Shown one piece after another: positions 18,335 through 45,808 of a stretch of 46,005 bases of DNA. The stretch covers positions 1 through 46,005 of the forward strand of contig CADBCZ010000023.1 in NCBI GenBank assembly GCA_902793335.1. Reading direction: 5' to 3'. How positions within the stretch are numbered: position 1 is the first letter of the stretch; every line of letters starts with the position of its first letter. The position numbers were made by a program, and so were the translations under genes. The notes below the pieces were generated by a model. The model saw nothing but the letters and a program-made list of their open reading frames with translations, had not been told where the DNA came from and did not search any database. Source of the stretch: an uncultured Lachnospiraceae bacterium (GTDB taxonomy: Bacteria; Bacillota; Clostridia; Lachnospirales; Lachnospiraceae).

Positions 18335-18694
18335 TTAACCTGCAACCTTAGCAATTATTGATTTCAGATTATCGCGATCAAATGGTTTTGCAACAAATTC
18401 TGTAGCTCCATTGCGAACCGCTTCAACAATTTTTGTCTTCTGACCCGCAGCAGTTATCATAACTACCTTCGCATCAGGAAAATCATCTTTAATCTTCTTA
18501 AGTGCAGCTATACCGTCCAACACCGGCATAGTAATATCCATTGTAACAATATCAGGACGTAACTCGGCATATTTGTCGTAGCCCTCCTGTCCGTTAGTTG
18601 CCTCTCCGAGTATCTCGTGTCCTTCTTCCTCCAATAAGCCTCTTAATATTTTTCTCGATGTTCTTGAGTCATCAACAATTAAAACCCTAGCCAT
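18335..18694 (-). CDS. CheY-like single-domain response regulator
   Basis: A 119-residue stand-alone receiver domain. Acidic residues in LIVDDSRTSR (8-9), the phospho-acceptor Asp in IVTMDITMPVLDG (near 52), the switch Thr in VMITAAG (near 82) and the lysine in FVAKPFDRDN (near 104) are all present. It is probably active as a phospho-dependent switch in chemotaxis/motility or a related pathway. GAGGTG precedes the ATG. It lies 22 bp downstream of the MshEN-CheX gene, which encodes a plausible phosphatase for it. Whether it is the main CheY of the cell cannot be told from this window. Confidence 0.92.
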   Translation of the reverse strand: MARVLIVDDSRTSRKILRGLLEEEGHEILGEATNGQEGYDKYAELRPDIVTMDITMPVLDGIAALKKIKDDFPDAKVVMITAAGQKTKIVEAVRNGATEFVAKPFDRDNLKSIIAKVAG

Positions 18695-18716
18695 TAGTTT
18701 TCACCTCATTCCAAAA

Positions 18717-19613
18717 TTATTCAAGTTCCCAATCAGCTTCTCTGCAGATAACAAGATCCACACACTGATCCTTTATGTATATAGGTACTTTCACAATATT
18801 ACCTTCATCTTTAATCACAGTGACAGAATCCTTCAATATCGGCGGAAGCATGTCAATATCCACATATTCGTTACTTAACTTAGTAGCAAATAATCCGTTA
18901 TTACAGTTAAGGAATTCGCATGTTGCATCAACAACATCAAGATCAATAACATCAAATTCTTCTTTAGCATAAGCCTCAGCAATTATCTTCAACGCCTCAC
19001 CCTCTCCAAAGAAACCTGTGAAAATCCTATAGTCACCATCTAACACCTGTGCTGCCACGTAAGGTGCAGTCACCTTCTCGACCACCGACACAGGTCCGAT
19101 TCTGAATTGTCTCTCAATGAAACGACCAATATTTCTTGCCGTCAATGAGATATAATCCTTTATAACAGGTGCTATCGAGCAATCTCTTAATATCACCTCT
19201 ATTATCTTATCGGTATCTCCACTTTTCAAATCTTCAACATCCAGATCTGAAAGTTTCTTGGCAGCCTTATATTCTTTGACATAATCCTTAATCTGTTCAA
19301 GTGTAAGAATATTCTTCTCTACAACTGCCTGAACAAACAAAAGATAACTGTCTCCCTGCTTGTTCAATAACATCTCAACCTGTGAATCTGTAAGATAACC
19401 TCTATCTACAGCTATATCACCAAATCTTTTATCAAGTCTGCGCTGAGCATCATTGACTTCATCAGCCTCTTCCTCTGTCATAAATCCTTCTGCAACCGCC
19501 AATATACCAAGTCTGACTCTTGCATTCTGACTATCTACGACAACCTCCTGATACTGCTCTTTGGTGATAACCCCCCTATCCTCTAAATACTTCCCAAAAT
19601 ACGCTTCAAACAT
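18717..19613 (-). CDS. MshEN-like tandem module fused to a CheX-type phosphatase domain
   Basis: A 298-residue soluble protein. Residues ~5-95 resemble the MshEN/GspE_N module: after FGKYLEDRGVITKEQYQEV come two related blocks, RLGILAVAEGFMTEEEADEV and RFGDIAVDRGYLTDSQVEML, spaced by a few residues as in the tandem motif that binds c-di-GMP in MshE. A helical linker (~95-150) follows. Residues ~150-298 look like CheX/CheC: the ExxN phosphatase signature appears in CEFLNCNNG near 235, with the usual strand pattern around it. I infer that it dephosphorylates the adjacent CheY-like protein, possibly under c-di-GMP control. Neither binding nor phosphatase activity is proven. AGGAG lies upstream of the ATG. 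Confidence 0.7.
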   Translation of the reverse strand: MFEAYFGKYLEDRGVITKEQYQEVVVDSQNARVRLGILAVAEGFMTEEEADEVNDAQRRLDKRFGDIAVDRGYLTDSQVEMLLNKQGDSYLLFVQAVVEKNILTLEQIKDYVKEYKAAKKLSDLDVEDLKSGDTDKIIEVILRDCSIAPVIKDYISLTARNIGRFIERQFRIGPVSVVEKVTAPYVAAQVLDGDYRIFTGFFGEGEALKIIAEAYAKEEFDVIDLDVVDATCEFLNCNNGLFATKLSNEYVDIDMLPPILKDSVTVIKDEGNIVKVPIYIKDQCVDLVICREADWELE

Positions 19614-19784
19614 CCTTATTCTCCTATCTTCTATATAATAATTACTACTATAAAAATATGATTATCTGTCATTTTACAAGTAACTACATGAAAGATCTTC
19701 TTAATTATAGCATAAAAGGTGTCTTATATGCAACTTTTTAACCAAATTTATTGTATATTTTTACATAAAAAATCTTTTTCTACA

Positions 19785-19813
19785 TTGAATTATTCATTTA
19801 TATTATATATAAT
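19785..19813 (+). promoter_or_regulatory. Sigma-A-type promoter of the GGDEF-EAL gene
   Basis: TTGAAT (19785-19790) and TATAAT (19808-19813) with exact 17-bp spacing lie in an AT-rich intergenic region, about 70 bp before the start codon. Confidence 0.65.
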
Positions 19814-19880
19814 AACATTAATATACAAATGAAGTCTATAATAAGCGTATCTTTTATCTGATAGAGAGGAACTGTTATCG

Positions 19881-22304
19881 ATGTCAATCAAGCAAAACCT
19901 TCAAAGTTCTATCTTGTTTTTGGCGGTTATTCCCGTTATTTTAATGGCGTTACTGGCGTATTTTGTTTCTCTGTCAAAGTATGCAAGTATTAACGAAGTA
20001 AATATCACCAAAACAGCTTCAGACTACAGCTTCGGATTCACTTCTCAATTAGAATCTCAAATTATTGAGACAGAAGCATTGGCAGACACCAACAATATCA
20101 AAAGCTACCTCCTCGAAAAAGTCAACTCCCCTGATGCTTTACTTGACACAAATTCGGCTGCCTATCAGAGTATTCTCGAATCAATCGTACAGTTATCCAA
20201 CAATGCCGATCACAGTGTCAATTATTCATTTTACGATATCGATGGTTATCTCACAATAACCACTGACGATGACGCCGTATCGGACTGGGCTGAAATAATG
20301 GATAAAACCGTTTCCGAATATACCACTACCATTGTTATCCCAAAATCTGACTTTGACCCGAATACATTGGATATTATAACCCCGGTAATAGTAAATGGTA
20401 ACATCATCGGTCTTCTTAGAACCAATATTAAGAAGGAGTATTTCGGAATATTTATATCAGCGGAAAGAGGCACCTTTTTACTTGATAAAGCAGGCAAGCC
20501 GATATTTGGTCATAAGACAACAAAAGAAGATAAAACATTTTTGAATCATATCAAAAGTTTGTTCAATTCTTCTACCAATAATGATACTATGGTCAAATTA
20601 AATGATGCCTTCTCAGAGAATACCGATTATCTCTATGGATATGCAACCATCCCAACATACGACTGGATATATGTAGTCAAGCAGGACACATCCACATACA
20701 CAAATATAGTCTCCAGTCTTCCGGGTATAATGATAATACTGTTAATAGCAGTTGTCATTGTAGCTGCATTTATAACCAGAAACATTGTAAATTTATATAC
20801 GATACCTATTTTTCAACTACAGGAAGATATCAGAGCAGCCGCTTCAGGAAAACTGGATGTTCACTGTGATGTAAACAGCGATGACGAATTCGGGGATCTC
20901 GCTGACAATTTCAATCAGATGATGGATATCATTTCCACAAATTACACCGAATTGGTCGGTGCTCATCAGAAACTTGAAGATAATCAGATTGAACTGCAGC
21001 ATAACTATGAACACATTGAGAACCTTGCTTATACAGATGCTCTCACCGGAATATATAACAGACTTGCCTTCTATAAATTTGCCGACAAACTTCTCAAATC
21101 AAAAAATGAGAAAAAGAAGCGGCATGCGATGATTTTTATTGACCTTGATGGTTTTAAAGCGATCAACGACACTTTAGGACATGATTACGGCGATCTCCTT
21201 TTACAAGCTGTAACAGCAGAGTTATCAAAACGCATTTCAAAGTATGATATACTTGGAAGAAACGGCGGAGACGAATTTGTAATTCTGAGAGCACATCCGG
21301 GCTCAGACCAAGAATTGCAAGAATTTATGACTTCACTCGTCGATATAGCCTCTCATCCATTTATATTAAATGATGAAACTGTAAAGGTGACCATAAGCGC
21401 CGGTTGTGCCGTATATCCATCACAGGGCACTACTATTTCCGAATTGATGAAAAAAGCCGATATAGCAATGTATACCTCTAAAATGAGTGGCAAAAACAGC
21501 TATACATTTTTCAGCCTGGAGATGAAGCAGGAAATCGAAAGAAAGAATGAACTTATAGAAATTCTAAAAGATGCGATTAAAATGCAAGATATTTATCTTG
21601 TATATCAGCCTTTGTATAATAATATAAATGGTGATATAATCGGCTGTGAAGCACTTATGAGGCTTGATTCCATAGAGCTTGGAAACGTCTCTCCCACTGA
21701 ATTCATTCCTGTTGCCTGCGAGGCAGGCATGATAGATGAGATTGGCGAATGGGCTTTATTTGAAGCATGTCGATTTAACAGCCGACTACTCAAGTTTGGA
21801 ATCAAACCCATATTTATTTCAGTTAATATTACACCACTACAATTGATGGGCGACAAACTTTTAAACACCATAAAGTCAATTCCTAAACTCACAGGTATGC
21901 CGCTTGAGCATTTGGTCATTGAATTAACCGAAAATGTAATCGATAAAAATTACGAGCATAACCTGGAAATAATTAATCAGGTAAAAGAACTCGGCGTAAG
22001 AATTGCACTTGATGATTACGGAACAAAATCATCTTCATTTAACGTATTAAGCCGTCTTCCAATTGACATACTGAAACTTAACAGCACATTTATTGCAAAA
22101 ATATGCGATAATGAGAAAGAAGCATATATCTCCGAAACAATAATAAAATTAGCACATGAACTTGGGCTTACTGTTGTTGCCGGAGGCGTTGAAAATGACA
22201 ATCAGCGTTTATTGCTCAAAGAACAGTCCTGCGATATCGTTCAAGGTTTTATGCTCAGCAAACCTTTAGATGAAGAGGACTTCATGGAATTAATAAGTGA
22301 ATAA
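19881..22304 (+). CDS. Membrane GGDEF-EAL c-di-GMP enzyme with extracytoplasmic sensor
   Basis: An 807-residue protein. TM1 (~9-29) and TM2 (~282-304) bracket a ~250-residue extracytoplasmic sensor that fits a dCache fold. A HAMP-like segment (~305-358) and a short coiled coil follow. GGDEF is intact (GRNGGDEFVIL near 466), but the upstream inhibitory RxxD is replaced by SKYD. The EAL domain has CEALMRLD near 590, VNITPLQL, IELTENVID and LDDYGTKSSSF. The usual LKID lysine-aspartate reads LKLN, so one acidic residue is Asn. The protein could make, degrade or sense c-di-GMP; the domains suggest bifunctionality. GAGAGGA precedes the ATG. It is divergent from the MshEN-CheX gene, 267 bp away. Confidence 0.9.
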   Translation: MSIKQNLQSSILFLAVIPVILMALLAYFVSLSKYASINEVNITKTASDYSFGFTSQLESQIIETEALADTNNIKSYLLEKVNSPDALLDTNSAAYQSILESIVQLSNNADHSVNYSFYDIDGYLTITTDDDAVSDWAEIMDKTVSEYTTTIVIPKSDFDPNTLDIITPVIVNGNIIGLLRTNIKKEYFGIFISAERGTFLLDKAGKPIFGHKTTKEDKTFLNHIKSLFNSSTNNDTMVKLNDAFSENTDYLYGYATIPTYDWIYVVKQDTSTYTNIVSSLPGIMIILLIAVVIVAAFITRNIVNLYTIPIFQLQEDIRAAASGKLDVHCDVNSDDEFGDLADNFNQMMDIISTNYTELVGAHQKLEDNQIELQHNYEHIENLAYTDALTGIYNRLAFYKFADKLLKSKNEKKKRHAMIFIDLDGFKAINDTLGHDYGDLLLQAVTAELSKRISKYDILGRNGGDEFVILRAHPGSDQELQEFMTSLVDIASHPFILNDETVKVTISAGCAVYPSQGTTISELMKKADIAMYTSKMSGKNSYTFFSLEMKQEIERKNELIEILKDAIKMQDIYLVYQPLYNNINGDIIGCEALMRLDSIELGNVSPTEFIPVACEAGMIDEIGEWALFEACRFNSRLLKFGIKPIFISVNITPLQLMGDKLLNTIKSIPKLTGMPLEHLVIELTENVIDKNYEHNLEIINQVKELGVRIALDDYGTKSSSFNVLSRLPIDILKLNSTFIAKICDNEKEAYISETIIKLAHELGLTVVAGGVENDNQRLLLKEQSCDIVQGFMLSKPLDEEDFMELISE

Positions 22305-27836: not shown

Positions 27837-28829
27837 CTACTTTGTCTTAACACTTGATTTTTTCCACTTTCCAAATGTCATAATATCATCAACATAGACA
27901 AAAGTACGAATTCTGACATAATATTTCTTTTTAGATTTAAGCTTTTTATTTTTATATTTCTTTAATATCACTTTGGTGCCGGAGGAACTCACATAGTAAT
28001 AATCCGATTTTTTGAAATTCTTCTTATCAGATATCTGAAGCTGATACCCTTCTACATCGGCTTTCTTCCATTTAATAGTGATTTTCTTTTTGCCAGATAC
28101 TAGTTTAAAACCTTCTACTTTTTTCGCTGTTTTATTATTCTTAGTAGGCGTTGTATCATTATCTGCTATATTTTCACCTGTTGTTGTCTCGGTTGTTGAC
28201 TTCTCTGATGATTTTTCTTCATTTTTATTATCAGCAGTGGTTTTCTCAGTAGTTTCACCAGAAGTTTGTGTTTCAACACCCTGTAAAAGCTTTGTTTCAC
28301 CTGACTTGCTTAACGCGACCTGATATTTTACAGAACCACTTGCCGGTTCGGTAACAGCTTCCGCCTTATCGTATCCAAATTGCTGTACCCAATATAAGCT
28401 ATTACCAAACTCAAAGCAACCGATACCTATCGACTTATAACTCTTATTAAGAATATTGCTCTTATGTCCCTGTGAGCTCATCCAACTACTCATCACAGCA
28501 CTTGCACTCCTCTGTCCCCAGGCTATATTCTCCCCAAATACCTTATCATTGATAGTAAAACAGTTTTCTCCATTAGGCCTTACATGATTAAATGTCACCG
28601 TTATCTCTGCCGACCTTGCCATAGCAGATTCCAAAAGGCTTGCATCCATCTCAACAGTAGGAACACCGGCAACAGAACGCTCCTTATTGACAAGTTCTAA
28701 CACTTTAAATGCATAGTCATATCTTACCTTACCTGAAACCTCCTTATTATCTGCAGCATACACCTTTACTGCAGGAAACAATAATATAACAAAAGCAATA
28801 GCAACTAAAAGTTTAGATATTTTCCTCAT
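27837..28829 (-). CDS. Secreted CAP-domain protein with Fn3-like C-terminus
   Basis: A 330-residue exported protein. The signal peptide is clear (KLLVAIAFVILLFPAVKVYA). The CAP/SCP domain (~35-160) has VLELVNKERSVAGVPTVEMD, FNHVRPNG, GENIAWGQRSA, SWMSSQGHKSNIL and YWVQQFG, with the conserved His and Glu residues. A Thr/Glu-rich linker (~185-235) and a Fn3-like domain follow (ITIKWKKADVEGYQLQIS, then KKYYVRIRTF). CAP proteins of bacteria are poorly understood; roles in envelope binding or lipid handling have been proposed. The ATG at 28829 is preceded by GAGGAG 8 nt away. Its Fn3-like part resembles those of the surface proteins further right. Confidence 0.88.
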   Translation of the reverse strand: MRKISKLLVAIAFVILLFPAVKVYAADNKEVSGKVRYDYAFKVLELVNKERSVAGVPTVEMDASLLESAMARSAEITVTFNHVRPNGENCFTINDKVFGENIAWGQRSASAVMSSWMSSQGHKSNILNKSYKSIGIGCFEFGNSLYWVQQFGYDKAEAVTEPASGSVKYQVALSKSGETKLLQGVETQTSGETTEKTTADNKNEEKSSEKSTTETTTGENIADNDTTPTKNNKTAKKVEGFKLVSGKKKITIKWKKADVEGYQLQISDKKNFKKSDYYYVSSSGTKVILKKYKNKKLKSKKKYYVRIRTFVYVDDIMTFGKWKKSSVKTK

Positions 28830-28961
28830 ATGCATCACTCCTCGTATAATCTATTATTATTAGTTTAACATATAGATAACAGACTTACTACTGTTAATAT
28901 ATGGTCTGGTAGAAAACAGATTTAGCAAAAAGGATGACCATTAATATGGTAATCCACTCAT

Positions 28962-29855
28962 TTATAGCATTGCTATTTTATTACCCATAAATTTTTTGAG
29001 ATTCTCTAACTCATTCTTCAATTTCTCATTCTCTTCCTTCTCCGTTTTTAATTCCTGTTCTACGCTCTGCAACTGTTTATCTTTGCTCTGCAATTGTTCA
29101 TTCAACTCATTGATTTCTTTATCAAACTCTTCTTTAAACATATCTCTCAAAGCTCCCATTCCGACCATCTCCTTTATAAAATCCTTGTCCTTATTTAAGG
29201 ATATACTAAAATCTATTACCGATTCCGCATTTACAAAATCTATCTCATCGTGCAATTTGGCTACTTCATCTTTAATCCTTAAAACATCTTCCCACTTAAG
29301 ATTTCTAGTAATCATTCTAAGCCATGGATAGGCTTCACCAAGTCTTCCAGTCACTATAATCTGCATATCTACATGCCCTTGTTTCCTCACATGGTATATT
29401 CCTTTATCATATTCACTGATCGAAAATTCATCGTTTTTTAAATATCCCATGAGATTTCTTGGATAAGATTCCCTTAAAAAAGAAACCGTTATATCGTTCA
29501 TAGAAATATCATTATCATTGTAGGCTATAAAAAGATTCATGTAACCCATTGTGCGGTGATATACCCTAGCATTAAGACTATCAGCGCAACTCTTGAATTC
29601 AAATATATTATACTTCTTAAATATTGCACCAATACCGCTTTTTACCTTAATGTTATCATCCATATTAATTGCAAGAAAGTCCATACTGTTAGGTTTTGTA
29701 TTAAGAAGAACCTCATCTTCGAATACCATATGACTCTCATCTTCTCGAAGCTCCATTTTCATAGCTACGCAAAATGCCGGATGATATTGTTTTTTAAATG
29801 ATTCTTTAACTTTTAAATCACCATTATAATTTTCAGTTATGAGTGTATTATTCAT
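28962..29855 (-). CDS. Coiled-coil protein with possible PD-(D/E)XK-like residues
   Basis: A 297-residue cytoplasmic protein. In the first half, SMDFLAIN (near 57) and NIFEFKSCADSLN (near 83-95) give a D...ExK arrangement seen in PD-(D/E)XK folds, followed by YHRTMGYMNLFIAY. The C-terminal ~70 residues (EEFDKEINELNEQLQSKDKQ onward) are a clear coiled coil. Such proteins are frequent in Lachnospiraceae and some resemble Rpn/transposase-linked nucleases. Identification is tentative. Its position between a CAP protein and a surface protease gives no help. Confidence 0.55.
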   Translation of the reverse strand: MNNTLITENYNGDLKVKESFKKQYHPAFCVAMKMELREDESHMVFEDEVLLNTKPNSMDFLAINMDDNIKVKSGIGAIFKKYNIFEFKSCADSLNARVYHRTMGYMNLFIAYNDNDISMNDITVSFLRESYPRNLMGYLKNDEFSISEYDKGIYHVRKQGHVDMQIIVTGRLGEAYPWLRMITRNLKWEDVLRIKDEVAKLHDEIDFVNAESVIDFSISLNKDKDFIKEMVGMGALRDMFKEEFDKEINELNEQLQSKDKQLQSVEQELKTEKEENEKLKNELENLKKFMGNKIAML

Positions 29856-30001
29856 TTATACTCCTTTCCTATTAAATAAATAATAAAAAATCAATAGAAA
29901 AGGAATTATGGAGTAAACAAATAAAAATGTTATTCGTGCAACACAAACATAGCTCTTATACATTTAATTGTCAAGTATATTTTTAGCATTATTATAAATA
30001 T

Positions 30002-33000
30002 TTACTTCACAGTTACACTTAAAGTCTTAGAAAGACCGTTTCTTGCATATACATGGACCTTTGTCGTTCCTACAGCAACGCCTTTGAGCTTACCGTTCTT
30101 ATCAACAGTAACAATACTTTCATCCAAACTAACATAGCGAAATTTCTTCACGTTCAAAAAAGTAAGCTGTTTCTTCTTATTATCAATCGGTATGGTTGTG
30201 GCAGATATTTTTTCTGTTTCTCCTACATTAAGCTTAATATATTTTTTTGCTAATGATATCGCTTTCGGATTAGTGTATTTCTTATTTTTATCACCTGCAA
30301 GATAACAAATATCACTTTTTGCAATCAATGTTTTTTTGCCATCAATTATTTTAAACGCTTCAATCTTAGCAGCAAAAACTTTATTGCGCTTAATCTTCTT
30401 ACCATTTAGCTTTGTTATTTTTATACTTCTTTTATTATTTTTGTTGATTATCTGCACAGGCTTTTTCATCTTGCTGCCATAATAACCGGCATACACATAA
30501 TATCCATCTGCACCTTTTATCTTGTTCCATTTTAGCTTTAAGGCATTCTTCTTCATCGTCATGTTAAACCCAATAAAGCTTATACTATTATCAGACGTAC
30601 CAACAGTTGATGAATTCTCAACAGAATTTTCTCCCGTATTGTCGTCTGGAGTTTGCTCTGATTTGTCACCTGAATCAGCCACAGAAGTATCTTGCCTAAC
30701 AACCAAATCACCACTCGGTTTAATCTCCGGTTTGTCACTTTGAGGATCTTTGGGTTCGACCCCTGGCGTATCGCTTAGGTTATCTGTCGGTGTGTCACCC
30801 GGTTCTACCTCTGGTGTTTCGCTTGGTGTATCACTTGGTTCTACCTCCGGCTTGTCATTTGGCGTTTCGACACTTTCTTCTCCCGGTGTGTCGCTTGGTG
30901 TATCACCCGGTTCATCTCCCGGTGTATCGCTCGGTTCTACCTCCGGCTTGTCATTTGGCGTTTCGACACTTTCTTCTCCCGGTGTGTCGCTTGGTGTGTC
31001 ACCTGGTTCTACCTCCGATGTTTCGCTTGGTGTATCACCCGGTTCTACCTCTGGCTTGTCACTTGGCTCTTCGCCCATTTCTTCTCCCGGTGTATCGCTC
31101 GGGTTATCACTCGGTGTGCCGACAACCGACTTCACCTCAAATGAATACCGACCCCAATCAGTTCCTGTGACAAGCCACTTATCTGTAGCTGCACAGGCAC
31201 CCTTAACTCTAACATACATTAGTTCTTCATTACTATTGTCATCAATTATTATATCTCCAACCCACTCTTTTGAGTTAACAAACGAACCGCTTACAATATG
31301 ATTGGTAAATGGATCATTTATATCATAAGAAACCTCAGGACAAATGTCACCACACATATCACGGTTAAATGCAATATGAAGCTTATATTCACCTGCAACT
31401 AATACACTCACTCTTTCTCCATTTTTGTCCTCGACATATACATCACTGACAACCGGATAACAACTTTCTGATGCATTGCCATAAGTCAAATCAGAATCAC
31501 TTGTATGTGAATTATTAAGAATGACATTATTTGAATGCTCATTTACTATATTCTCGGAATTAATGATCATCGGTTTATACACCAAACTGCCATTGTCAGA
31601 ACTGTCAACTCTGGCACAGTTGATCAAGAAAACACTGTTTGTCGCATAAACCTTACATGCATTAAATGAGCAGTTATCAAATTGAACCGTATCAAAATTT
31701 CCCTCAATATTAACATCATTTTTAGAGGTGTTACCGTTACCATTTTCACATCTGAGATTGCTCATATTGGAAAATGAGATATTATCACAGATAACTGATG
31801 AACCACCTTTATATACATGATATTTACCTTTATTATCTATCCCTCTGTAATTAACTGTATCAAAATCCTGAACCAGATTAAGATGATCACCATTATTGAT
31901 TGATATACATGGATTCGTTATATTGACATAGCTCATATTGACGGTGCCGTTATTAACGATCTTAACCTCATATGCAGTGAAATCTCTTCCTGGAAGTAGA
32001 TTGATTGGGTTGTCCTGACTACCATCACATATAAAACTTCCATTCACTTTAATGTATGTATACGGATCTGTTTTCTTAACCGTAGCAGGATCACCTGTCC
32101 AGAATTCTATTCTGCTTCCGCCAACCACAGTGACCGTAACGCCTTCATCGATTATAACTTCACCATCAATAATATAATTACCGTCAAGTGTTGTATCTTC
32201 AGTAATTGTTCCGTTCAAAACTGTAGGGGAGGTGGTATCCGTATCACTTTCCGCACTATAATTATCGGATGTTTCATTATCGACAACACCTTCTGTATTT
32301 CCATCATCCCTTGTCGGATCATCAACTTTAACTTTCACACTTTCAAGAAATGCACCCGAAGAAAACTTCACAAGACCATTATCATCAGCCTGCAAATTTT
32401 CAAGCATCTTATTCATTATTCCTCTTGATGAATATGAGGTCTTGCCCTTCATATCAGCTATATAAACAGCAGCCGCAGCTGAAACAATCGGTGCTGAGTA
32501 TGAAGTTCCGTTTTTAGCGCCATAACCCCCACCTGAAGTCGTACTGTATATTGAAGAACCCGGTGCAGCAAGCTCATATTCAGGACCTTCACCCTTCTTA
32601 GCATCCAGGTTAGAAAATGAAGCAAGTTTTCCTTCCTTGTCATAAGCCATAACACCTATTACATAAGGGTAACACGCCGGATATTGATTGCCCTTTTTTT
32701 CGCTATCAGAATCAGCAGTAGAATAGCTCTCATTTCCCGCCGCAGCAACAAGCACACTACTACCAAATGCCCGTCCCAGAGCAGTCTCAACAATTGCGGA
32801 ATGCACATAAGCACCAAAAGACATATTGATAACGTCAGCCCCCATTGCAGAAGCATAGTCTATAGCCTTAGCAATATCCGTAGATTTAAATGTTCCCGAA
32901 GCATCCCCGGCTTTCACAATCATCAGACGCGAATTACAGGCCATTCCTACACCGCCCACGTCATTATTCTCCATTCCGATAACTCCGGCAACAAATGTTC

Positions 33001-33790
33001 CGTGACCATTATCATCCATAAGGCCATCATCGCCCTCTACAACAGATACTCCATGAATATCATCCACGTATCCGTTGCCATCATCATCAACTCCTGCCTT
33101 ACCGTTTGCCTCGGCTTCATTTATCCAAATGTTATCTTTTAGATCTTCATGTGTATAGTCAACCCCGGTGTCAATGACCGCTACAACAGAACCTTTACCA
33201 CTATATTTATCTATTCCATTATTATTCCAGAAATCAAGCAATCCCTGCTCTTTTAAGTACCATTGTTCGGATATTCCCGCATTGGATAACAATGCTTCTT
33301 CCATACTATTATTTTCAGTATTATTATTTTCGATATTGTGTGTATCAACATGATCATCATCACAGATATGATATTCATAGACAGGCTCTGCTATAAGACA
33401 ATCGCCTGAAGAATTCCAGGAATCTATTTCATTCCATATATCAGAATTGCTATCAGATTTAACAGAGTATGTAACCAAGCGGCTTCCATCAGCATTTTCA
33501 CACACAGAAACGATCTCACATCCTGCAATTTCATTATCTAAAGAAAGGCTGTTATCTCCTTTGTCTTCTTTGCGCACAATAACAAAGCTCTCATCGCTTA
33601 TGTCTGCCTGAGCACGATATTTCTCATCGGAAATCTCTTCAATGATATCAGAATAATCATACATATCCGCTGTTGATACCGATATCATCTTTGCCTCACC
33701 GCCTGAAAACGGCATAATTGAAACAAGAGAGTTAACAATCAATGATAATGCAGTTGTAAATGTCAGAATAAATCTGTATTTTTTGATCAT
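30002..33790 (-). CDS. Subtilisin-like (S8) surface protease with repeats
   Basis: A 1262-residue secreted protein. A signal peptide (FILTFTTALSLIVNSLVSIM) and propeptide (~30-185) precede the S8 domain (~190-470): Asp in VAVIDTGVDYTHEDL, His in DDNGHGTFVAGVIG, Ser in NGTSYSAPIVSAA. A beta-helix-like region (~510-780) and Ig-like part follow. A Pro/Glu/Asp/Thr/Ser repeat (~905-1030: EPGDTPSDTPGE and variants) acts as a stalk. A Fn3-like (WNKIKGADGYYVYAG) and a Big2-like end (RYVSLDESIVTV, VYARNGLSK) close it. There is no LPXTG. The ATG at 33790 has GGGGGTGG a few bases upstream. It probably degrades external or cell-surface protein. Confidence 0.9.
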   Translation of the reverse strand: MIKKYRFILTFTTALSLIVNSLVSIMPFSGGEAKMISVSTADMYDYSDIIEEISDEKYRAQADISDESFVIVRKEDKGDNSLSLDNEIAGCEIVSVCENADGSRLVTYSVKSDSNSDIWNEIDSWNSSGDCLIAEPVYEYHICDDDHVDTHNIENNNTENNSMEEALLSNAGISEQWYLKEQGLLDFWNNNGIDKYSGKGSVVAVIDTGVDYTHEDLKDNIWINEAEANGKAGVDDDGNGYVDDIHGVSVVEGDDGLMDDNGHGTFVAGVIGMENNDVGGVGMACNSRLMIVKAGDASGTFKSTDIAKAIDYASAMGADVINMSFGAYVHSAIVETALGRAFGSSVLVAAAGNESYSTADSDSEKKGNQYPACYPYVIGVMAYDKEGKLASFSNLDAKKGEGPEYELAAPGSSIYSTTSGGGYGAKNGTSYSAPIVSAAAAVYIADMKGKTSYSSRGIMNKMLENLQADDNGLVKFSSGAFLESVKVKVDDPTRDDGNTEGVVDNETSDNYSAESDTDTTSPTVLNGTITEDTTLDGNYIIDGEVIIDEGVTVTVVGGSRIEFWTGDPATVKKTDPYTYIKVNGSFICDGSQDNPINLLPGRDFTAYEVKIVNNGTVNMSYVNITNPCISINNGDHLNLVQDFDTVNYRGIDNKGKYHVYKGGSSVICDNISFSNMSNLRCENGNGNTSKNDVNIEGNFDTVQFDNCSFNACKVYATNSVFLINCARVDSSDNGSLVYKPMIINSENIVNEHSNNVILNNSHTSDSDLTYGNASESCYPVVSDVYVEDKNGERVSVLVAGEYKLHIAFNRDMCGDICPEVSYDINDPFTNHIVSGSFVNSKEWVGDIIIDDNSNEELMYVRVKGACAATDKWLVTGTDWGRYSFEVKSVVGTPSDNPSDTPGEEMGEEPSDKPEVEPGDTPSETSEVEPGDTPSDTPGEESVETPNDKPEVEPSDTPGDEPGDTPSDTPGEESVETPNDKPEVEPSDTPSETPEVEPGDTPTDNLSDTPGVEPKDPQSDKPEIKPSGDLVVRQDTSVADSGDKSEQTPDDNTGENSVENSSTVGTSDNSISFIGFNMTMKKNALKLKWNKIKGADGYYVYAGYYGSKMKKPVQIINKNNKRSIKITKLNGKKIKRNKVFAAKIEAFKIIDGKKTLIAKSDICYLAGDKNKKYTNPKAISLAKKYIKLNVGETEKISATTIPIDNKKKQLTFLNVKKFRYVSLDESIVTVDKNGKLKGVAVGTTKVHVYARNGLSKTLSVTVK
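30839..30997. repeat. 96-bp tandem repeat within the protease stalk
   Basis: About 63 bp starting near 30839 recur exactly 96 bp away (from 30935), encoding PNDKPEVEPSDTP and neighbours. Shorter degenerate copies extend to about 31115. This can expand or contract by slippage or recombination, changing stalk length by 32 residues without a frameshift. Confidence 0.85.
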
Positions 33791-33862
33791 CAAATGCCAC
33801 CCCCAATGCAACATTTAATATATAAGGAAATCTGTTTCCAGTCGCCCATTTTACCAATTACA

Positions 33863-35461
33863 TTATTTTACGCATCGACGAATCCTGCATTTATGCTCTT
33901 TGGTATTTTTATCGTAATTTATACCCACCAGAACAATTTCGCCACCATAATTTTCAAGTAATCTGGGATAATTTCTGTCATTTATTTGTTGTATGGCTCC
34001 ATCTGCTGTTTTGTTCCATTTTAATTCAATTATCATAGCCGGAAGCATAGATCGCCTTTTCGGCAAGAACACTATATCTGCGATACCATGTCCGGATGGC
34101 AGTTCCTCAAGTTTTGCATACTGATCTACACATGAAATATATGCCATTTTTATAACATAACGAAGACTTTGTTCGTTATTGTAAAATGTAGGCGCATACT
34201 CAGATTCATGAACCTCTGCAATAGCTTCTGCCACAGCAGTTTCATTTCCTGCAAGTGTATCGTTTAACAATTTATCCGATTTCTCAACTAGTTCAACCAA
34301 TCTCTGATGCTTTGCCTTTCGAAGCATCATGTCAAATTCCGTCCTTACCTCTTCATTTGGAATACTTGCCATACCAATAACCTCATCATCGTCCTCATCA
34401 TAAGAATTCGATACCTCTTCATATGTCAGATATCCCAAATGAATCAACAATGTGAGCACATCGTCTTTGCATGTAAATGTATTAACATCATTTTGAAACG
34501 AATCAGTTGCTACCTCAACACTCTCTCCTGCTATCAGTCTCTTTATATCATCCTGAAGACCATCCTGATCTATATCAATATAGGTCATAAGTGTTTCTGC
34601 AGCAGAAGTTTTTTTCCAATAAGATCTGTACTTTCCATTTTCAATGACCTGCATAACAGAGTATGGATTGTATAAAGAATGCTTTTCCCCTATCGTATAC
34701 CCATCATACCATTTTTTCATTTTTTCAAAACTTTTTCCGGAGCTTTCACAACACTGTTTTACTTCATCCTCGGTAAAACCTATATAACTTGCCAGATTGC
34801 CCGGTTCAAGCACCGTATATTCTTCAAAATCTGATACTGCAGATTGATTACCATCCTTTTTGATAGGAAGTATTCCCGTCATATACGCAGCAGCGAATAC
34901 TTTAGAGGTAGTTCCACTGTTCTTAAACAAAGAACGAAGAAACTCAAGATACTCTTCCTGTACACCCGGGTTTTCCCTAATAGGAGCATCCCACTCATCT
35001 ATTACTATAATGAACTTATTACCCGCTTTTTCCACAGCATCAACTAATGTAGCCGATAGATCTTCTTTTTCTGTCACTTCCGGATACTGGATTTTTATTT
35101 CCTCTGTCAGGTTTCTTATAAGAAATGGTATCAATGTTTTATATTTATCAGTATATGGTTTAATACCTGTCATATCCCAATAGATAACATCATATTTATT
35201 CAAATGCTTTTCATAGTTTTCATCTCCGGCTATTTCATATTTTTCAAACAATTTACCGGAGTCACATGTTTTATCATAATAAGCGCAAAGCATTTGTGCA
35301 GCATAGGATTTTCCAAATCGTCTCGGTCTGCTAATACATATTAATTTTTTCTTGGTTCCTATCGCAGCATTTATTATTTTTATCAGACCTGTTTTATCAA
35401 TGTAATACGATTCCAATATTTCTGAAAATCCACTATTACCGGGATTTAGGTATGTTCCCAT
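33863..35461 (-). CDS. AAA-ATPase-like / PD-(D/E)XK_9 protein
   Basis: A 532-residue cytoplasmic protein of the AAA-ATPase_like (PF09820) plus PDDEXK_9 (PF08011) type. The P-loop variant SRPRRFGKS is at about residues 44-52 and Walker B KFIIVIDEWDAP near 153. YIDKTGLIKIIN is a conserved start. The C-terminal nuclease-like domain has GIADIVFLPKRRS and MIIELKWNKTADGA (ExK). This family occurs in many copies in gut Firmicutes and Bacteroidetes; the function is unknown. AAGGTGAGG precedes the ATG. It lies between the two big surface genes but has no obvious functional link to them. Confidence 0.9.
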   Translation of the reverse strand: MGTYLNPGNSGFSEILESYYIDKTGLIKIINAAIGTKKKLICISRPRRFGKSYAAQMLCAYYDKTCDSGKLFEKYEIAGDENYEKHLNKYDVIYWDMTGIKPYTDKYKTLIPFLIRNLTEEIKIQYPEVTEKEDLSATLVDAVEKAGNKFIIVIDEWDAPIRENPGVQEEYLEFLRSLFKNSGTTSKVFAAAYMTGILPIKKDGNQSAVSDFEEYTVLEPGNLASYIGFTEDEVKQCCESSGKSFEKMKKWYDGYTIGEKHSLYNPYSVMQVIENGKYRSYWKKTSAAETLMTYIDIDQDGLQDDIKRLIAGESVEVATDSFQNDVNTFTCKDDVLTLLIHLGYLTYEEVSNSYDEDDDEVIGMASIPNEEVRTEFDMMLRKAKHQRLVELVEKSDKLLNDTLAGNETAVAEAIAEVHESEYAPTFYNNEQSLRYVIKMAYISCVDQYAKLEELPSGHGIADIVFLPKRRSMLPAMIIELKWNKTADGAIQQINDRNYPRLLENYGGEIVLVGINYDKNTKEHKCRIRRCVK

Positions 35462-35570
35462 ATCCTCACCTTCTTTTCAAAATAATTATAGATATATCTA
35501 TAATTTTACCCTAACAAAATCTAATTTACAACAGCAAAAATGAAATGAAGTCTTTTAATATAAAAAACAA

Positions 35571-35625
35571 TTCTCCGGCACCTTTTAAACGCTTATTTAC
35601 AAACGTTTTAAAGGATACCGGAGAA
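35571..35625 (-). terminator. Terminator of the giant surface gene (copy A)
   Basis: A 55-bp imperfect palindrome: TTCTCCGGCACCTTTTAAACG pairs with CGTTTTAAAGGATACCGGAGAA. On the minus strand it is followed by TTGTTTTTT. It is identical to the copy at 44804-44858. Confidence 0.9.
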
Positions 35626-35657
35626 TCTTTATAAGTGTATCATATGAAGTTAATAAC

Positions 35658-38600
35658 TTATTTAACAACAGTTACTTTGATTTCCTTTGCATATCCATTT
35701 CTGGCATATACATAAATTATTGTTGTTCCTTCTTTAACTCCTGTGATCTCGCCCTTTGCGTTAACTTTCGCGATCTCAGGATCAGCAGATGCATATCGGA
35801 ACTCCTTGGCGTGAGCATCAGAAAGCTGTTTTTTAGAATTGTCAACCAGTATAGTCTTTGCATTAATCTTATGTGTACTACCCACACCGACATTGATTAT
35901 CGTATGGTTTGTAATCTTTATATCTTTAACATTAGTAAAATTATTATTCTTCAAACCTACTATGTGGGCAGTAATTGATTTGCCTATATTAAGTTTCTTT
36001 CCGCCTGCTTTCTTATATGCTCTGACAAGTATCTTGTAGTTCTTCTTAAGATTGAGTTTCTTGCCATTGATCTTCTTTACAGATAATTTAGTTGTCGTAT
36101 TCTTCTTAATAGTCTTGGTAGCTTTCCTGCTAAAGTCTTTACCGCAATACTGTACAAACACCTGATATCCGTCTGCATCTTTAACCTTCCCCCACTCGAT
36201 ATTGATCTTATTGCCTACCTGATCAACCTTAAGTTTTATGTTAATACTTAATGTATTCTTTCTAAGCTTCTCCGGAGTAGCATACTTGTTAGCTGCAACC
36301 TCGACCTGTGCATCTGACTTAGCCTCTTTTGCAATCTCAGCAGTTTTATTCATCACTTTTTTAACAAGTGTTGTATTTTCTTTTGTCGACTCAGCATCAG
36401 ACACTGTTCCTTTAGCTGCATTGCCAACAATCTTTTCAACTGTAGAATCCAGAGAGTCAATCACTTTCTTAGCTTCTTTATCAACCTCTGTCTTCAACGA
36501 CTTCTTCTGCTTATCGGTAAGTCCCTTAGTGTTATCAATCGTCTTCTTAGCTGCCACAATCTGACTTTCCACTTCTGTTTTGAGCGCATCTTTAATTGTT
36601 GCTTTGGTTGCTTCAATCGCTTTCTGATATGCCGCCTCTACAGCTTCAACATATGGTGAAGAATCTACAGCATTTTTAGCATCCGCAATTGTTGTATCAT
36701 TCTGTTTCTTAAATTCTTCCTTCTTTTCATCAGAAAGATTAGTTAATGAGTCAACTATTTTATTCACTTCCGCAACAACATTATTAATCTTATCTTCAGC
36801 ATTTTTCTTAGAAGCCTCAAGAGTTTCATCGATCTTAGGCTCGTCTGTTTTCTTGTCATCAGCCTTAGGCTCGTCTGTTTTCTTATCGTCGGTCTTAGTT
36901 TCGTCCGGTTTCTTCTCATCCTTACTCTTGTCGTCTTCGTTCTTGTCATCAGCCTTAGAATTTTCCTTCCACTGTGCATATAATGTCATATCAGCAGTCG
37001 GAGTAACATCTGCCTTATCAGCATATGCCGTTCCTTTTCCGTCGGTCTTGGTATTCCAACCGTCAAAAACAAAGCCCTCTCTTGTAAATGTGTTAGCATT
37101 TAATGCAGCTGTACCACCAATCTCCTGCTCCGCCATAGTTCCTGTCCCGCCGTTGGCATCAAATGTTACCGTATATTTTGCAACGGCTTTATAAGTTGTA
37201 GTTCCGTCTTCATTATCTGTCTTGGTAAGAATCAATGTCGGCGGTACTACTATATCAACAACTCCGGTATGATTATCCTTATCGATAGTAATTGTCTTTT
37301 CCGTATTGATACTTGCTGATACATCATTATCGTTGATAAGCTTAATAACAGCTCCATCTTCAGTGTCATCTATGGCACTCTGAAGATCAGTATAATTGTT
37401 ACCATCAACCGAAACAACGGATTCACTGGTGCCGCTTAATGTAAATGTACCGAACCCGTTAGGATCTACAAATTCAGCAACATACGCGTCGTCATCATAA
37501 TAAAGCTTTACATTATACTCGTAATTTATACCATTACTGCTATGCTTAACATAAGCGGTTTCAGGAGAATCATTAGTACTATTTTCTGTCGCGCCAATAG
37601 CCTGTGCAAATTCTTCCGGTAATTCAATCCTGATATTTACAGGAGTACCTTTCGTATCAATCTTTCCGGATCCGATCTCCTTAACCTTTTCCTTATCAGC
37701 CTCATCTTCTGATGCAGCCGCAGAAATGGTATCTGCAGCGGATGTGATATCATCAGTAGTCTCATAGCTCTTGTAAACAGCATCTATGTCCAGTGTAAGT
37801 TTAGTATCATCCTCTGAAATAACATAATCCTTCGCATCAATCTCAAGTGACGGAATGATAACTATATTCTTGTTGCTGTCTTCTACATCCTCAGATTTGT
37901 TGACAATATCCTGTGTCTGCCTGATTACGGCATCTTCAATATCTGCTGTTGTCTTCTTGGCAATCTCTTCTACTACTTCCACATATTCTTCAGGAATGTT
38001 TTCTGTATCAACATTTATTACCGGCTCTCCCTGATCTATCTTGACATCCGCATTCGTATCCGTCAGATTTTCAAGTACCCTCTGTTTTTCCAGATCCTTC
38101 TCAAGTTTGGTAATAATATCATCTAATGCGTCCTCGTTCCGGTCTAAAGCCTTGTCGTAATCATACGGAAGTTCATCAATATCCTTCTTGGCATTTTCAA
38201 CCAGCTTCCTGCTTTCTTCGCTGTCATCATCTTTCAAAAGGTCATCTGCAGCAGTTTTCCGTTCTTCCTTATCTGTGTTAAATGTTTCTACAGATTCTTT
38301 GTCTGCGATATTGTAACCGATTGCATAAGTTGATAACCTCTTGGTATAAATAGTAATAGTTTTCGCCTCATTATCGATCTGGAATGTCCCATCAATTCCC
38401 GGTGTCTTATCTGAAAGTGTCTCCGTGGTTTCTCCGTAAGAACGATAAACGGTAACATTGTCCTTACCTGTGAAATCATATGGAACCACAATGACCAAAA
38501 CGTTGTCGGTTTCAGTAACAGCGTTATCAGTTGTGCTGTCTACAACCTTCACAAGTTTAGTTTCAAAGAATTCTAACGTTTTGTCAGAAGCCTGTTCCCT

Positions 38601-41600
38601 GATCGCATTGACATTCTCCGAAGCTTCTGTACTATCTTCCTTCTTCTCCACCGTCATGGTAATTGTAACAGTTTCAGGTGCACCATTCTGTGCAGCTCTG
38701 ACCGTTTCAGCCTCGACATCTAATCCGCCGACCAGGATGTCCGGCATAGCATCACCTACAACCAATACTGAATTAGTATTCTTTTCCGGCATAGTAAGGT
38801 CAAAGTCCTGACTTGAGGTAATTTCTACAAGTTCTGTCTTGGTAACACCATTATATTCCGACACGACATTGTAGATACCGGGTTCGACACTGAAACTGTA
38901 TTTTCCGTCAGCATCAGTATTAGTTGTGGCAACTACGGTATTACCCCTCTTCAATGTGATCTTTGCATTGACAATCGGGGTGGTTCCATTGCTTTCATAG
39001 ATTTCACCTACAACGATAGGTTTATCAGCCTCCGCAACCGTCTCTGCTTTAGGTATGACCACGATATCCTCGCCGATCACTTTATCATTTAACTTAGCAG
39101 CCACTTTGATTGTTCTGCCTTTGTCGGCATCGGTCGGAGTATAGGTATTGCCCGTCTCACCTTCAATCAGTATAAATTCACCCGAATCGTCACCTGTATA
39201 CCATTCATAAACAACTGAGGCATCTTTAGGTGTGGTTGTTACAGTAACAGGTTCTCCTACCGTTGGTGTTGCCGGACTTAAAGTCACGCTGTAATCTATA
39301 CGAACCACTTTAATATTCTCCGGTTCCGTATCCTCATGGTTGTCATCCTTTACCGCCTTGAACCAAATATAATAAGTTCCGTCCTTTCCTTCCGGAATCT
39401 CATCAGACCATCCTGTATCCGGTACATTTTTGTCATCTATACCAATTGCATAGACTATCTTATAACCATCCGGTGTCTCCTCTGTCGGAGCATTAATAAG
39501 CGGTGTCTGGTCATCACCTTCAGGAACAACATTATTTGCAGTAGGTTTCTGTTCATCTGTAAGGACAGGTGCCGGCTTCTTCTGAATAGTTACATCAAAT
39601 GAAACCTTTGGTGAATCATTGTGAAGTTCGTCACCCTTTACATAAACCCATACCGTATAATTACCCGCATTGGTTGCAACAGGAATATCGCTGCTCCAGT
39701 TTTCATCATCTAAGCTGTATTGAATTGTTCCGTCTCTTCCGACTCCGGCAGTAACAAGTTCCTGCGCGGTATCGTTATATGTAAGTTCATTAACCTGTGG
39801 AACCGTTACAAAAATAGCCTCCGGTTTGATTATCATAAACTCCTGTTCAAGATATTCATTCTTAGAATTGAGAACAATAGGAAGCTTTGCTATATATGTA
39901 CCTTCCTCTGTAGGCGCACCGTCAAGCTTCGTCTCTCCCTCATAATATTCTATACTTCCTCCGGATTTCGATGTCGTTCCCGTAAGAATACTGAATTCTT
40001 CCCATTCGTTGTGGTTGACACTTGTCCATGCCGTTTTTGCCTTGTCATAGACCTTAGTGTCATACAGTTTATTAGGTGCTGTAAGAGTGAGTGTAAGCTT
40101 ACCATCAACAAGATTACAGTTTTCTACATCATTCGTGCATGTTGCATTAAGCACATTTCCCTCTATACCGTATGTAATATCACTGTGGATATGTTCCCAA
40201 ATCTTTACCCATTTTTTCCTGTGTGATGGATAATTAAAGCATGCCCCTGCAGTACTGTCTGAATTTCCCGCAAGGCTCACATGATCATTTGCAATGGTCA
40301 GTGTTCCATGATTCTTTCCGCCATTACCCTTGCCTATTCCTACTCCGCCGCCGCTGCTATAGGCTGTGACAGTGCCGCCCGAAATCGTAACCTTGCCGCC
40401 ATTAGCGTTCGGACCGCCGCCGATTCCTGCGCCACATATACTAGTCGCAGTTACCGTTCCACCGGTTATGATTATTGTACCGCCGGGCACACCATATCCA
40501 CCGCCGATTCCCGCACCGCCGCTTCCGCTTCCGGCAGTGTTTTTAGCTACGACAGTACCACCATTGATTCTGATAGTACCTGCATTAGTTTTGTTGTCTT
40601 TCCTCTCACCTGATCCGATAGCAGCACCTCTTGTTCCGTCAGTTGCAGTTACCGTACCACCATTGATGGTAATGTTACCTGCGGAACCCTGATAAGCTCC
40701 GCCGATAGCTGCTCCGGCATAACCGCCTGCATTAACAGTTCCACCATTAATTGTAATATTACCGCCGGAACCATGTCTACCACCACCGATACCGGCTACC
40801 GATTTCCTCATTGGGACAGTGACTACACCGCCATTGATCACAGTTGTTCCACCGGATGCGGTATAGCCGCCACCAATTCCTGCTCCACCGGCTTCTCTTG
40901 AGCCGGATGCAGAAACTTTACCGCCGTTGATGGTGATAACACCGGAAGTTTTTCCCTTGCCGCTTCCGCCGATTCCTGCTGCCGCAACTCCTGTTGTGCT
41001 TTGAGTTCTTGAATTGAGGGCACCCATCAGACTCGTGTCATTTGTCTGACCATAGACGGTGAATTTTTTACCACTGTCTACAGAAATACCATTCGTTGCC
41101 GTGAGGGTTGCTCCGTTACAAAGGATGAGCTTTACATCACCATTAACCGTCACACGACCTGATATAGTTACATTTTCAGTAACAGCATACCAGCCACTGT
41201 TCCATTTGGCAGCAGCTGCCGTAACCACTGTTACTTTATCTGCCCCGATATATTTCTCTGTATAATCCACCTGCTTCGTTGCAGCATTCCAAGCTGCGTC
41301 AAGATATAGATAGTCCTTTGACCACTGTGCATAGAGCGTTGTATCTTCAACGATATTAAACGTAGCATCAGCCGCATATGCTGTGCCGGTGCCGTCCGCC
41401 TTTGTGTTCCAGCCGGCAAATGTATAACCTATCCTTGTAAGGCTGCCCGTGTTGCCGAGTACAGTTACGGTCGAACTGATATTATAAGGACTCTTGCTGT
41501 CAGTCGGCACACTGCCGCCTGTTGCACCATTTGCATTGTAGGTCACAGTCTTAGCCTTAATAGATGCTGTTACCGTAAGCCATACTGTTCCTGCTTCATG

Positions 41601-44669: not shown

Positions 44670-44737
44670 AAGCACTCTTCTCCTTTAGTATTTATTACGA
44701 CTTTCCCGATTGTCGTTTGAGCATAAAATATATGTCT

Positions 44738-44746
44738 ATTATATCA
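44738..44746 (-). promoter_or_regulatory. Extended -10 promoter of the giant surface gene
   Basis: On the minus strand TGATATAAT lies 69 bp upstream of the start. It is preceded by direct repeats of TTTTTGATGA-like sequence (44744-44770), possibly a regulator site. No good -35 is present. Confidence 0.6.
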
Positions 44747-44803
44747 AAAATCATCAAAAATATCATCAAAAAAAACTCAAACGTAAATTATATGTAAAAA
44801 CAA

Positions 44804-44858
44804 TTCTCCGGCACCTTTTAAACGCTTATTTACAAACGTTTTAAAGGATACCGGAGAA
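44804..44858 (-). terminator. Terminator of the truncated paralogue (copy B)
   Basis: The same 55 bases as 35571-35625. On the minus strand TTGTTTTTAC follows. It lies about 60 bp after the stop of the remnant surface gene. Confidence 0.88.
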
Positions 44859-44917
44859 CCAATATAGGAAAACTATATGAAACTATTAAGCTACATTTTT
44901 AACGGAACTATAAACAA

Positions 44918-45808
44918 TTACTTAACCGTTACTTTAATCTTCTTCGCATAACCATTTCTGGCATATACATAAATGGTACATGTTCCACTTCCAACAGCTT
45001 TGATTACACCCGACTTGCTGACGGTAGCAACCTTCTTGTCAGAAGATGCATAACGGAACTCTTTTGCATGAGCATCAGTCAACTTCTTCTTACTCTTAGT
45101 AACAAGATTGGTCTTAGCCTTGATGACAGATACACCATTTACATCCAAATCAAGAGTCTTGGCTGATTTGATAGTAATGCTCTTAGCATTAGAGTACTTC
45201 TTATTCTTCCTGCCGACAACATGTGCTGTCAATGATTTTGCAAGAACTATCTTCTTACCCTCAACAGTTCTGTATGCCGTAACATAAACTTTGTAGTTCT
45301 TCTTAAGATTGAGTTTATTACCGCCAACCGTATCAATCTCAGCGCTTGTCACATCACTGCTTAAAGTTGTATCCGGTGTTTCTAAGAAAGCACTGCCACA
45401 ATACTGTAAATATACATCATAATTCTCTGCGCCATCAACCTTACCCCAGGAAACGTTAATCACAGAAGCCTTCTGGTCTACCTTAAGACCACTATTAATG
45501 CTAATTGAATTCTTGTCCATCTCCTCTGCAGTGACAGTAGATCTAACTCTGATATCTGTTGCATTCTTACCATCTGTTATAGCTTTATTAAATGAATTGT
45601 TAAATGATTCCACAGCACTCTTCTTGGCAGTAGAGCCTTTGCTCTCAATAGTTTTAATTGCTGAAGCTGCAGCTTCATCTACGATCTTCTTAGCTTCTGC
45701 CTTAGCTGTATCATCAAGTGCAGAATTAGAATCTATATCCTTCTTTGCAGCCACTAATTTGCTATTGATTTCTTTAATAGCCTCTGCACCAAAAATGACG
45801 ATTTCCAT
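44918..45808 (-). pseudogene. 5'-truncated paralogue of the giant surface protein
   Basis: A 296-codon frame. After the first few codons it is the C-terminal part of a surface protein: helical repeats (INSKLVAAKKDIDSNSALDD), Fn3-like (WGKVDGAENYDVYLQ) and the Big2-like end (AHAKEFRYASSD, then IYVYARNGYAKKIKVTVK), closely like the C-terminus of the giant neighbour. The nominal ATG lies inside the tnpA sequence, read in another frame, without a signal peptide or good ribosome site. The 5' bulk of the gene, with its export signal, has been lost or lies elsewhere. Any product would not be exported. Confidence 0.8.

Follow-up and report, generated by a model that had tools for sequence, protein, structure and literature searches.

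An MshEN-CheX protein paired with a CheY-like receiver in Lachnospiraceae: a candidate phosphatase gated by c-di-GMP

The MshEN-CheX locus

A 46,005-nucleotide stretch of DNA from an uncultured Lachnospiraceae bacterium (GCA_902793335.1, contig CADBCZ010000023.1), referred to here as the window and belonging to a 3.6-Mb draft genome of 157 contigs, encodes a protein in which MshEN-type repeats are joined to a CheX-like domain. The protein is considered here as a candidate phosphatase of the adjoining CheY-like receiver, possibly gated by cyclic di-guanosine monophosphate (c-di-GMP). Three genes make up the locus:

18717..19613, minus strand: MshEN-CheX protein of 298 residues (open reading frame list, family scans, PDB and profile matches)
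18335..18694, minus strand: CheY-like single receiver domain of 119 residues, beginning 22 bases after the MshEN-CheX gene
19881..22304, plus strand: HAMP-GGDEF-EAL protein of 807 residues, diverging from the MshEN-CheX/CheY pair (open reading frame list, family scans)

The MshEN-CheX frame is not a chance open reading frame, because orthologs with 49-92% identity are present in 23 of 25 other genomes of the genus; one of these is split over two frames and one is truncated by a contig end. Named records exist for six close relatives; all are metagenome assemblies labelled Lachnospiraceae, Clostridia or Clostridiales, and two come from roe deer omasum or rumen.

MshEN-type repeats and the CheX-like domain

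Within the MshEN-CheX protein, the following features were located, the repeats being scored on the 11 positions of a relaxed form of the published 24-residue motif:

19530..19601, minus strand: MshEN half-motif I, residues 5-28, imperfect (Tyr at position 1, Ser at position 24), 9 of 11 positions
19443..19514, minus strand: MshEN half-motif II, residues 34-57, with Asn54 at the place equivalent to MshE Leu29, 10 of 11 positions
19356..19427, minus strand: MshEN half-motif III, residues 63-86, 11 of 11 positions
19269..19340, minus strand: possible degenerate fourth repeat, residues 92-115, glycine lost, 8 of 11 positions, a score that one other, unrelated place in the protein equals
18834..19052, minus strand: CheX domain, Pfam match to residues 188-260, with similarity to CheX structures within residues 173-290
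18906..18917, minus strand: ExxN catalytic motif, Glu233 to Asn236, aligned with 1squ

A preliminary description of this DNA had proposed a tandem MshEN-like motif and a CheX-type ExxN motif in a single protein, and both were recovered. The protein scores 49.6 bits, in three stretches, against the curated NCBIfam family NF053729 (c-di-GMP_motif, MshE-related; cut-off 38), so that the MshEN profile search suggested in that description came out in its favour, and all six further MshEN-CheX relatives scanned also pass (39.2 to 65.8 bits). The best-scoring solved structure is MshE from V. cholerae (5htl; phmmer E 2.4e-4 over residues 31-85). The MshEN-CheX family profile matches the same chain with E 1.4e-5, and profile-profile comparison with PilB-type ATPases from the same and other genomes gave E 6.8e-8 at a probability of 94.6. 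The repeats recur every 29 residues, and the pair beginning at residues 34 and 63, with its 5-residue spacer, fits 21 of 22 relaxed positions, which was equalled by none of 5000 shuffles of the protein. Like the MshEN domain of the MshE/PilB/GspE ATPases (5htl), the protein thus carries two 24-residue motifs 29 residues apart with conserved Gly, Gln and Arg/Lys; unlike those proteins, it has an extra imperfect front motif and Asn or His at the Leu29 place, and family scans of it gave no ATPase match.

Conservation was counted over 70 full-length relatives, the window protein included. Motif II keeps its Gly and its Gln in 68 each, and motif III its Phe in 68, its Gly in 68 and its Gln in 67. 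Among the residues that contact guanine in MshE (Leu10, 25, 29, 39, 54 and 58), those of the second pocket are kept, and in the first pocket Leu25 and Leu29 are replaced by Ala50 and Asn54. Residue 54 covaries with residue 66 (Asn-Asp in 52, His-Glu in 10, other pairs in 8), a pattern that follows clades. The nucleotide site of the MshEN part therefore appears, as far as sequence can tell, to have been retained and modified rather than lost.

For the C-terminal part, the single window sequence matches the CheX structures 1squ/1xko in the PDB with E 0.011. A search of 21 genomes, 13 of them from the genus, placed the orthologs in G001, G002, G003, G008, G009, G011 and G012 and a paralog in G007 over the 27-bit Pfam cut-off for CheX; the copies of the window, G004 and G005 were under it, and the ortholog in G010 had no listed match. 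A direct Pfam scan of single loci likewise put L061 (37.1 bits) and the distant relative L157 (45.4 bits) over the cut-off and L223, L081 and L155 under it. In the CheX profile search suggested earlier, some relatives thus pass and the window's own copy does not. Of the two catalytic residues, the Glu is conserved in 69 and the Asn in all 70 full-length relatives; in the CheC/CheX/FliY families, an Asn and an acidic residue are inserted into the receiver site, as described in part of the cited account (PMC3035606). The resemblance to CheX of Thermotoga (1squ, 1xko) and Borrelia (3hzh) lies in a CheX-like region with ExxN beside a CheY-like gene, and the differences are the N-terminal MshEN repeats, the weakness of the similarity and the position of the CheY gene outside a flagellar operon.

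Receiver partnership, kinases and distribution

The product of the downstream gene is a receiver with a Response_reg score of 103.6 bits in which D8, D9, D53, T81 and K103 are all present:

18536..18538, minus strand: codon of the phospho-acceptor Asp53, Asp in 63 of 63 receiver rows

The receiver alignment comprises 63 rows shorter than 200 residues, collected from the fetched loci by similarity search; at least one of these rows, a flagellar CheY, is possibly not a partner. The Asp pair, Asp53 and the Lys are invariant across these rows, and position 81 is Thr in 43 and Ser in 20.

Pairing with the receiver was assessed in 72 distinct MshEN-CheX proteins, the window's included, each with a profile match starting before position 70, ending after position 245 and spanning more than 170 positions; a receiver neighbour was defined as a protein of fewer than 220 residues on the same strand within 200 bases. 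A single receiver domain is encoded by the next gene in 43 cases, by the previous gene in 14 and as a C-terminal fusion in 5. The CheY-like protein had been named as the operon partner of the MshEN-CheX protein and conservation of the gene set had been put forward as a check; for the pair, the 22-base interval in the window, with adjacency in 57 of 72 and an adjoining or fused receiver in 62, upholds both. A family tree made by a quick method requires two changes of the fused state, and two gains are the simplest account of them. The occurrence of the receiver gene on either side of the MshEN-CheX gene, as well as fused to it, makes the receiver partnership the best-supported part of the analysis and is strong evidence that the CheX domain would act with the adjoining or fused receiver. 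The same fusion is encoded by Lachnospira eligens ATCC 27750 (WP_012740644.1, EUBELI_RS14770), where it is annotated merely as 'response regulator'; its first 300 residues score 40.9 bits against the MshE-related cut-off of 38, and its Pfam CheX match is weak (19.2 bits). Since the fusion occurs in a named strain, the system is directly testable.

The MshEN-CheX proteins without a receiver neighbour include a supported clade of seven that contains the second copy from the window's own genome. This second clade is represented by loci L073-L078 and L139. A partnership shared by the own-genome paralog on contig C41 (G000:C41) was considered and rejected, no receiver lying beside that gene. A converse arrangement is seen at L221, L222 and also L085, where CheX-like proteins without MshEN repeats are paired with the same kind of receiver; the genomes concerned also hold a full MshEN-CheX protein in a frame long enough for a fused receiver.

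Kinases adjoin the pair in distant members of the same phylum. At L156, L157 and L158, the receiver gene is followed by that of a kinase with a CheA-type ATPase; two of these three kinases have an Hpt match under the Pfam cut-off and none has a recognised CheW domain; the best PDB matches of the L157 kinase are CheA (E 2.8e-37). At L218 (1380-5107), a CheA-type ATPase and a CheX domain occur in one protein of 1000 residues that overlaps the next gene, which encodes a receiver protein, so that kinase and phosphatase of one pathway stand in a single chain. An ortholog of the distant CheA-like kinases was sought in the window's genome and rejected, the search giving nothing beyond the flagellar CheA and a single weak kinase match. 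The flagellar CheA, on contig C11, where FliM and a separate CheY share an operon region, is the sole CheA-type kinase found in the window organism and is for that reason the likeliest, presumed phosphate donor.

In an order-level sample of 392 genomes, a full MshEN-CheX protein is present in 79, a list that takes matches spanning about residues 1-259 or more and drops those to CheX only or to MshEN only (ATPase length). FliM is present in 77 of these 79 compared with 238 of 392 overall, in a test that ignores phylogeny; the two tallies are taken to cover the same 392 genomes from the equal number and the shared handles. The MshEN-CheX protein is carried by gut and rumen bacteria. A scan of viral contigs confirmed no MshEN-CheX relatives. 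Mobility of the module was considered and rejected, the candidates being two plasmid records of Lachnospira eligens and one unannotated, unverified 8.5-kb 'Bacteriophage sp.' record. The latter (L224, MT836856.1), from human faeces, encodes an MshEN-CheX relative and is possibly a bacterial fragment.

c-di-GMP context, proposed pathway and alternatives

The divergent gene and its catalytic sites were mapped as follows:

21027..21497, plus strand: GGDEF domain, motif intact (family scan, alignment)
21561..22265, plus strand: EAL domain, EAL motif kept, catalytic Glu and one Asp replaced
22182..22184, plus strand: codon of Gly768, at the place of the EAL general-base Glu

The general-base position, which we take to be that of RocR E352, is Gly in the window's EAL domain, and Asn replaces the Asp of the nearby KxD. 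At L054, Val stands at the general-base place and Asn replaces the second Asp of DDFG, an Asn shared by L091; the general-base Glu is kept in the other 18 of 20 covering rows, and all 20 retain the GGDEF motif unbroken. Because its EAL site is without the catalytic Glu, the window's enzyme is probably a cyclase only, with its phosphodiesterase half lost, and the ancestral GGDEF-EAL enzyme was probably bifunctional. The earlier statement that the divergent gene makes or breaks c-di-GMP accordingly probably stands for synthesis, given the intact GGDEF motif, whereas the incomplete EAL catalytic set of the window speaks against breakdown.

GGDEF-EAL neighbours were identified by their resemblance to the protein encoded in the window, a search that may have missed distant GGDEF proteins. 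Across 23 loci of the genus, such a gene adjoins in 18, lies two genes away in 2, is absent from the fetched stretch in 2 and could not be judged in 1. As a member of a conserved gene set, which the preliminary description had offered as a check, the gene is therefore retained mainly within the genus and rare elsewhere; L081, from another genus, also has a GGDEF-EAL neighbour, and GGDEF or GGDEF-EAL genes lie near the receiver-less paralogs of L074, L076 and L077. The window's genome holds 30 GGDEF matches over the cut-off. Among the receptor types searched, it has one PilZ protein and four MshEN proteins, the latter being two MshEN-CheX proteins and two of ATPase length. An Rfam scan of the window returned no family at the gathering threshold, and hence no known c-di-GMP riboswitch at that threshold.

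In the proposed pathway, CheA or another donor would phosphorylate the partner CheY, and the CheX domain would dephosphorylate it by putting Asn236 and Glu233 into the receiver active site; that the MshEN-CheX protein is a phosphatase of the partner receiver is considered highly probable on the residues and gene pairing described above. The ligand of the MshEN repeats would be a cyclic dinucleotide, with c-di-GMP the likeliest, and its binding would alter either phosphatase activity or access to the partner, in an activating or an inhibiting sense. On homology, nucleotide binding by the repeats is judged probable, and the identity of that nucleotide as c-di-GMP slightly less so. Whether the ligand would gate the phosphatase is evenly balanced. 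The likely output would be flagellar motor bias or speed, in parallel to the flagellar CheY, a step that may equally hold or fail, and the overall proposal, that the partner is served by a phosphatase gated by c-di-GMP, is given about an even chance whatever the output. The analysis itself shows the domain homologies, the conservation of both sets of key residues, the pairing of phosphatase and receiver and the co-occurrence with FliM, whereas binding, gating, the kinase and the motor output are proposals; the pathway suggested in the preliminary description, in which c-di-GMP sets the dephosphorylation of a CheY, is thus supported in part. The pathway would provide a direct route from c-di-GMP to swimming control, and, if true, a phosphatase set by c-di-GMP would be another point of entry into chemotaxis, acting on signal lifetime, in a common gut and rumen group.

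The preliminary description held that no pathway of this design had been described. No functional study of an MshEN-CheX fusion was found in the literature searches, but the domain association is already in print: parts of Wang 2016 (PMC5013675) name REC, CheA and CheX among the domains with which MshEN is associated, and within the literature searched this paper alone names MshEN and CheX together. The architecture has therefore been noted in print, and a functional account of it was not found in the literature searched. Related links between c-di-GMP and chemotaxis, as set out in parts of the respective papers, act at other places. The Cle proteins of Caulobacter (PMC7534056) likewise join c-di-GMP to CheY-type motor control, but there the CheY-like protein itself binds c-di-GMP, whereas here the ligand domain is on the phosphatase. 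In Pseudomonas aeruginosa, MapZ-CheR1 (PMC6370697) is similar in that c-di-GMP acts on a chemotaxis enzyme and differs in that a PilZ adaptor inhibits the receptor methyltransferase rather than a CheY-P phosphatase. For PlzA and CheX/CheY3 of Borrelia, a review (PMC4013479) suggests that c-di-GMP acts via CheX or CheY3; the link presented in its relevant part is indirect, genetic and through a separate protein, and a fusion is not described there.

Several findings weigh against the proposed pathway. In the MshEN part, half-motif I is imperfect, and across the 70 relatives the MshE Leu29 place in motif II is Asn in 54 and His in 13, and the MshE Leu25 place is Ala, Val or Thr in 67; according to parts of Wang 2016 (PMC5013675), MshE Leu29 stacks on the first guanine, and XpsE has lost binding through several changes, L29R among them. 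In the CheX part, the window's own copy scores 22.3 bits, the family profile matches CheX structures with E 0.054, and profile-profile comparison with canonical CheX, in which the Glu and Asn are aligned, reaches E 7.3e-5 at a low probability of 62. A receiver neighbour is missing from 10 of the 72 MshEN-CheX proteins, seven of them forming the one paralog clade and another (L040) lying near a contig end. FliM occurs without MshEN-CheX in 161 of the 238 FliM-bearing genomes, and the association with FliM is uncorrected for phylogeny. Outside the genus, a GGDEF-EAL neighbour is rare: one set of 28 loci gave 2, of which one is in the genus, and a set of 20 wider loci gave 1, at the same place as the non-genus case of the first set. 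No GGDEF gene was present among the scanned neighbours of the own-genome paralog (L073) or of L075. A promoter pattern of the flagellar sigma factor is not enriched upstream of MshEN-CheX genes relative to other open reading frames of the same loci. In the window itself, this pattern has 15 two-mismatch matches against 4.7 expected, a number reached in none of 100 shuffles; one of the 15 lies in the divergent region, and there are no exact matches.

The alternative that survives best is that the MshEN part no longer binds nucleotide and serves as a helical dimerisation or docking module, the CheX domain being a constitutive phosphatase of the partner CheY. The Asn or His and small residues found in one guanine pocket throughout nearly the whole family, the imperfection of motif I and the loss of binding documented for the relative XpsE in the cited part of Wang 2016 (PMC5013675) speak for this explanation. 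It is nonetheless thought unlikely: motif III is canonical by the relaxed pattern, each Gly and polar Gln in motifs II and III is retained by 67-68 of 70 relatives, which would be unexpected for a mere scaffold, and the covariation of residues 54 and 66 resembles that of a tuned site, though it follows clades.

A further alternative, thought improbable, is that the flagellar CheY is the main substrate of the phosphatase, the small receiver being a decoy or a regulatory subunit of that enzyme. The CheY of the flagellar operon in the same genome (C11) is 46% identical to the partner, and the paralogs without a receiver neighbour have to act on some other receiver or on none at all; however, the partner is adjoining or fused in 62 of 72 cases, and the flagellar CheY is already provided for in this genome by a free CheX, a CheC and a FliY-like protein. 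Least probable, by a slight degree, is that the altered pocket binds another nucleotide such as 3'3'-cGAMP and that the module reports another messenger, as the Asn or His at one base-stacking position and the weak binding of cGAMP by MshE itself (given in part of PMC5013675) would allow, but against which stand the 30 GGDEF matches in the genome and the GGDEF genes that lie near some loci of either paralog type.

A broader form of the c-di-GMP-gated phosphatase proposal is thought less likely than not: a widespread module may exist, chiefly among flagellated relatives within the phylum, in which a second messenger would act directly on the lifetime of CheY-P, MshEN with a remodelled pocket gating a CheX domain that serves a private CheY. 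It would occur as a pair, as a fusion such as that of Lachnospira eligens, or with its own CheA-like kinase that has no recognised CheW domain. If true, distant lineages would hold a complete kinase-receiver-phosphatase circuit under cyclic-dinucleotide control.

Other features of the window were also recorded. A TATAAT element upstream of the MshEN-CheX gene is present in 5 of 7 alignment rows and was not used as evidence. A protein of 532 residues with AAA-ATPase_like and PDDEXK_9 domains is encoded at 33863-35461, and positions 27837-45808 encode a series of proteins carrying CAP, subtilase, Big_2 and Flg_new repeat domains, among them one that is 3005 residues long.

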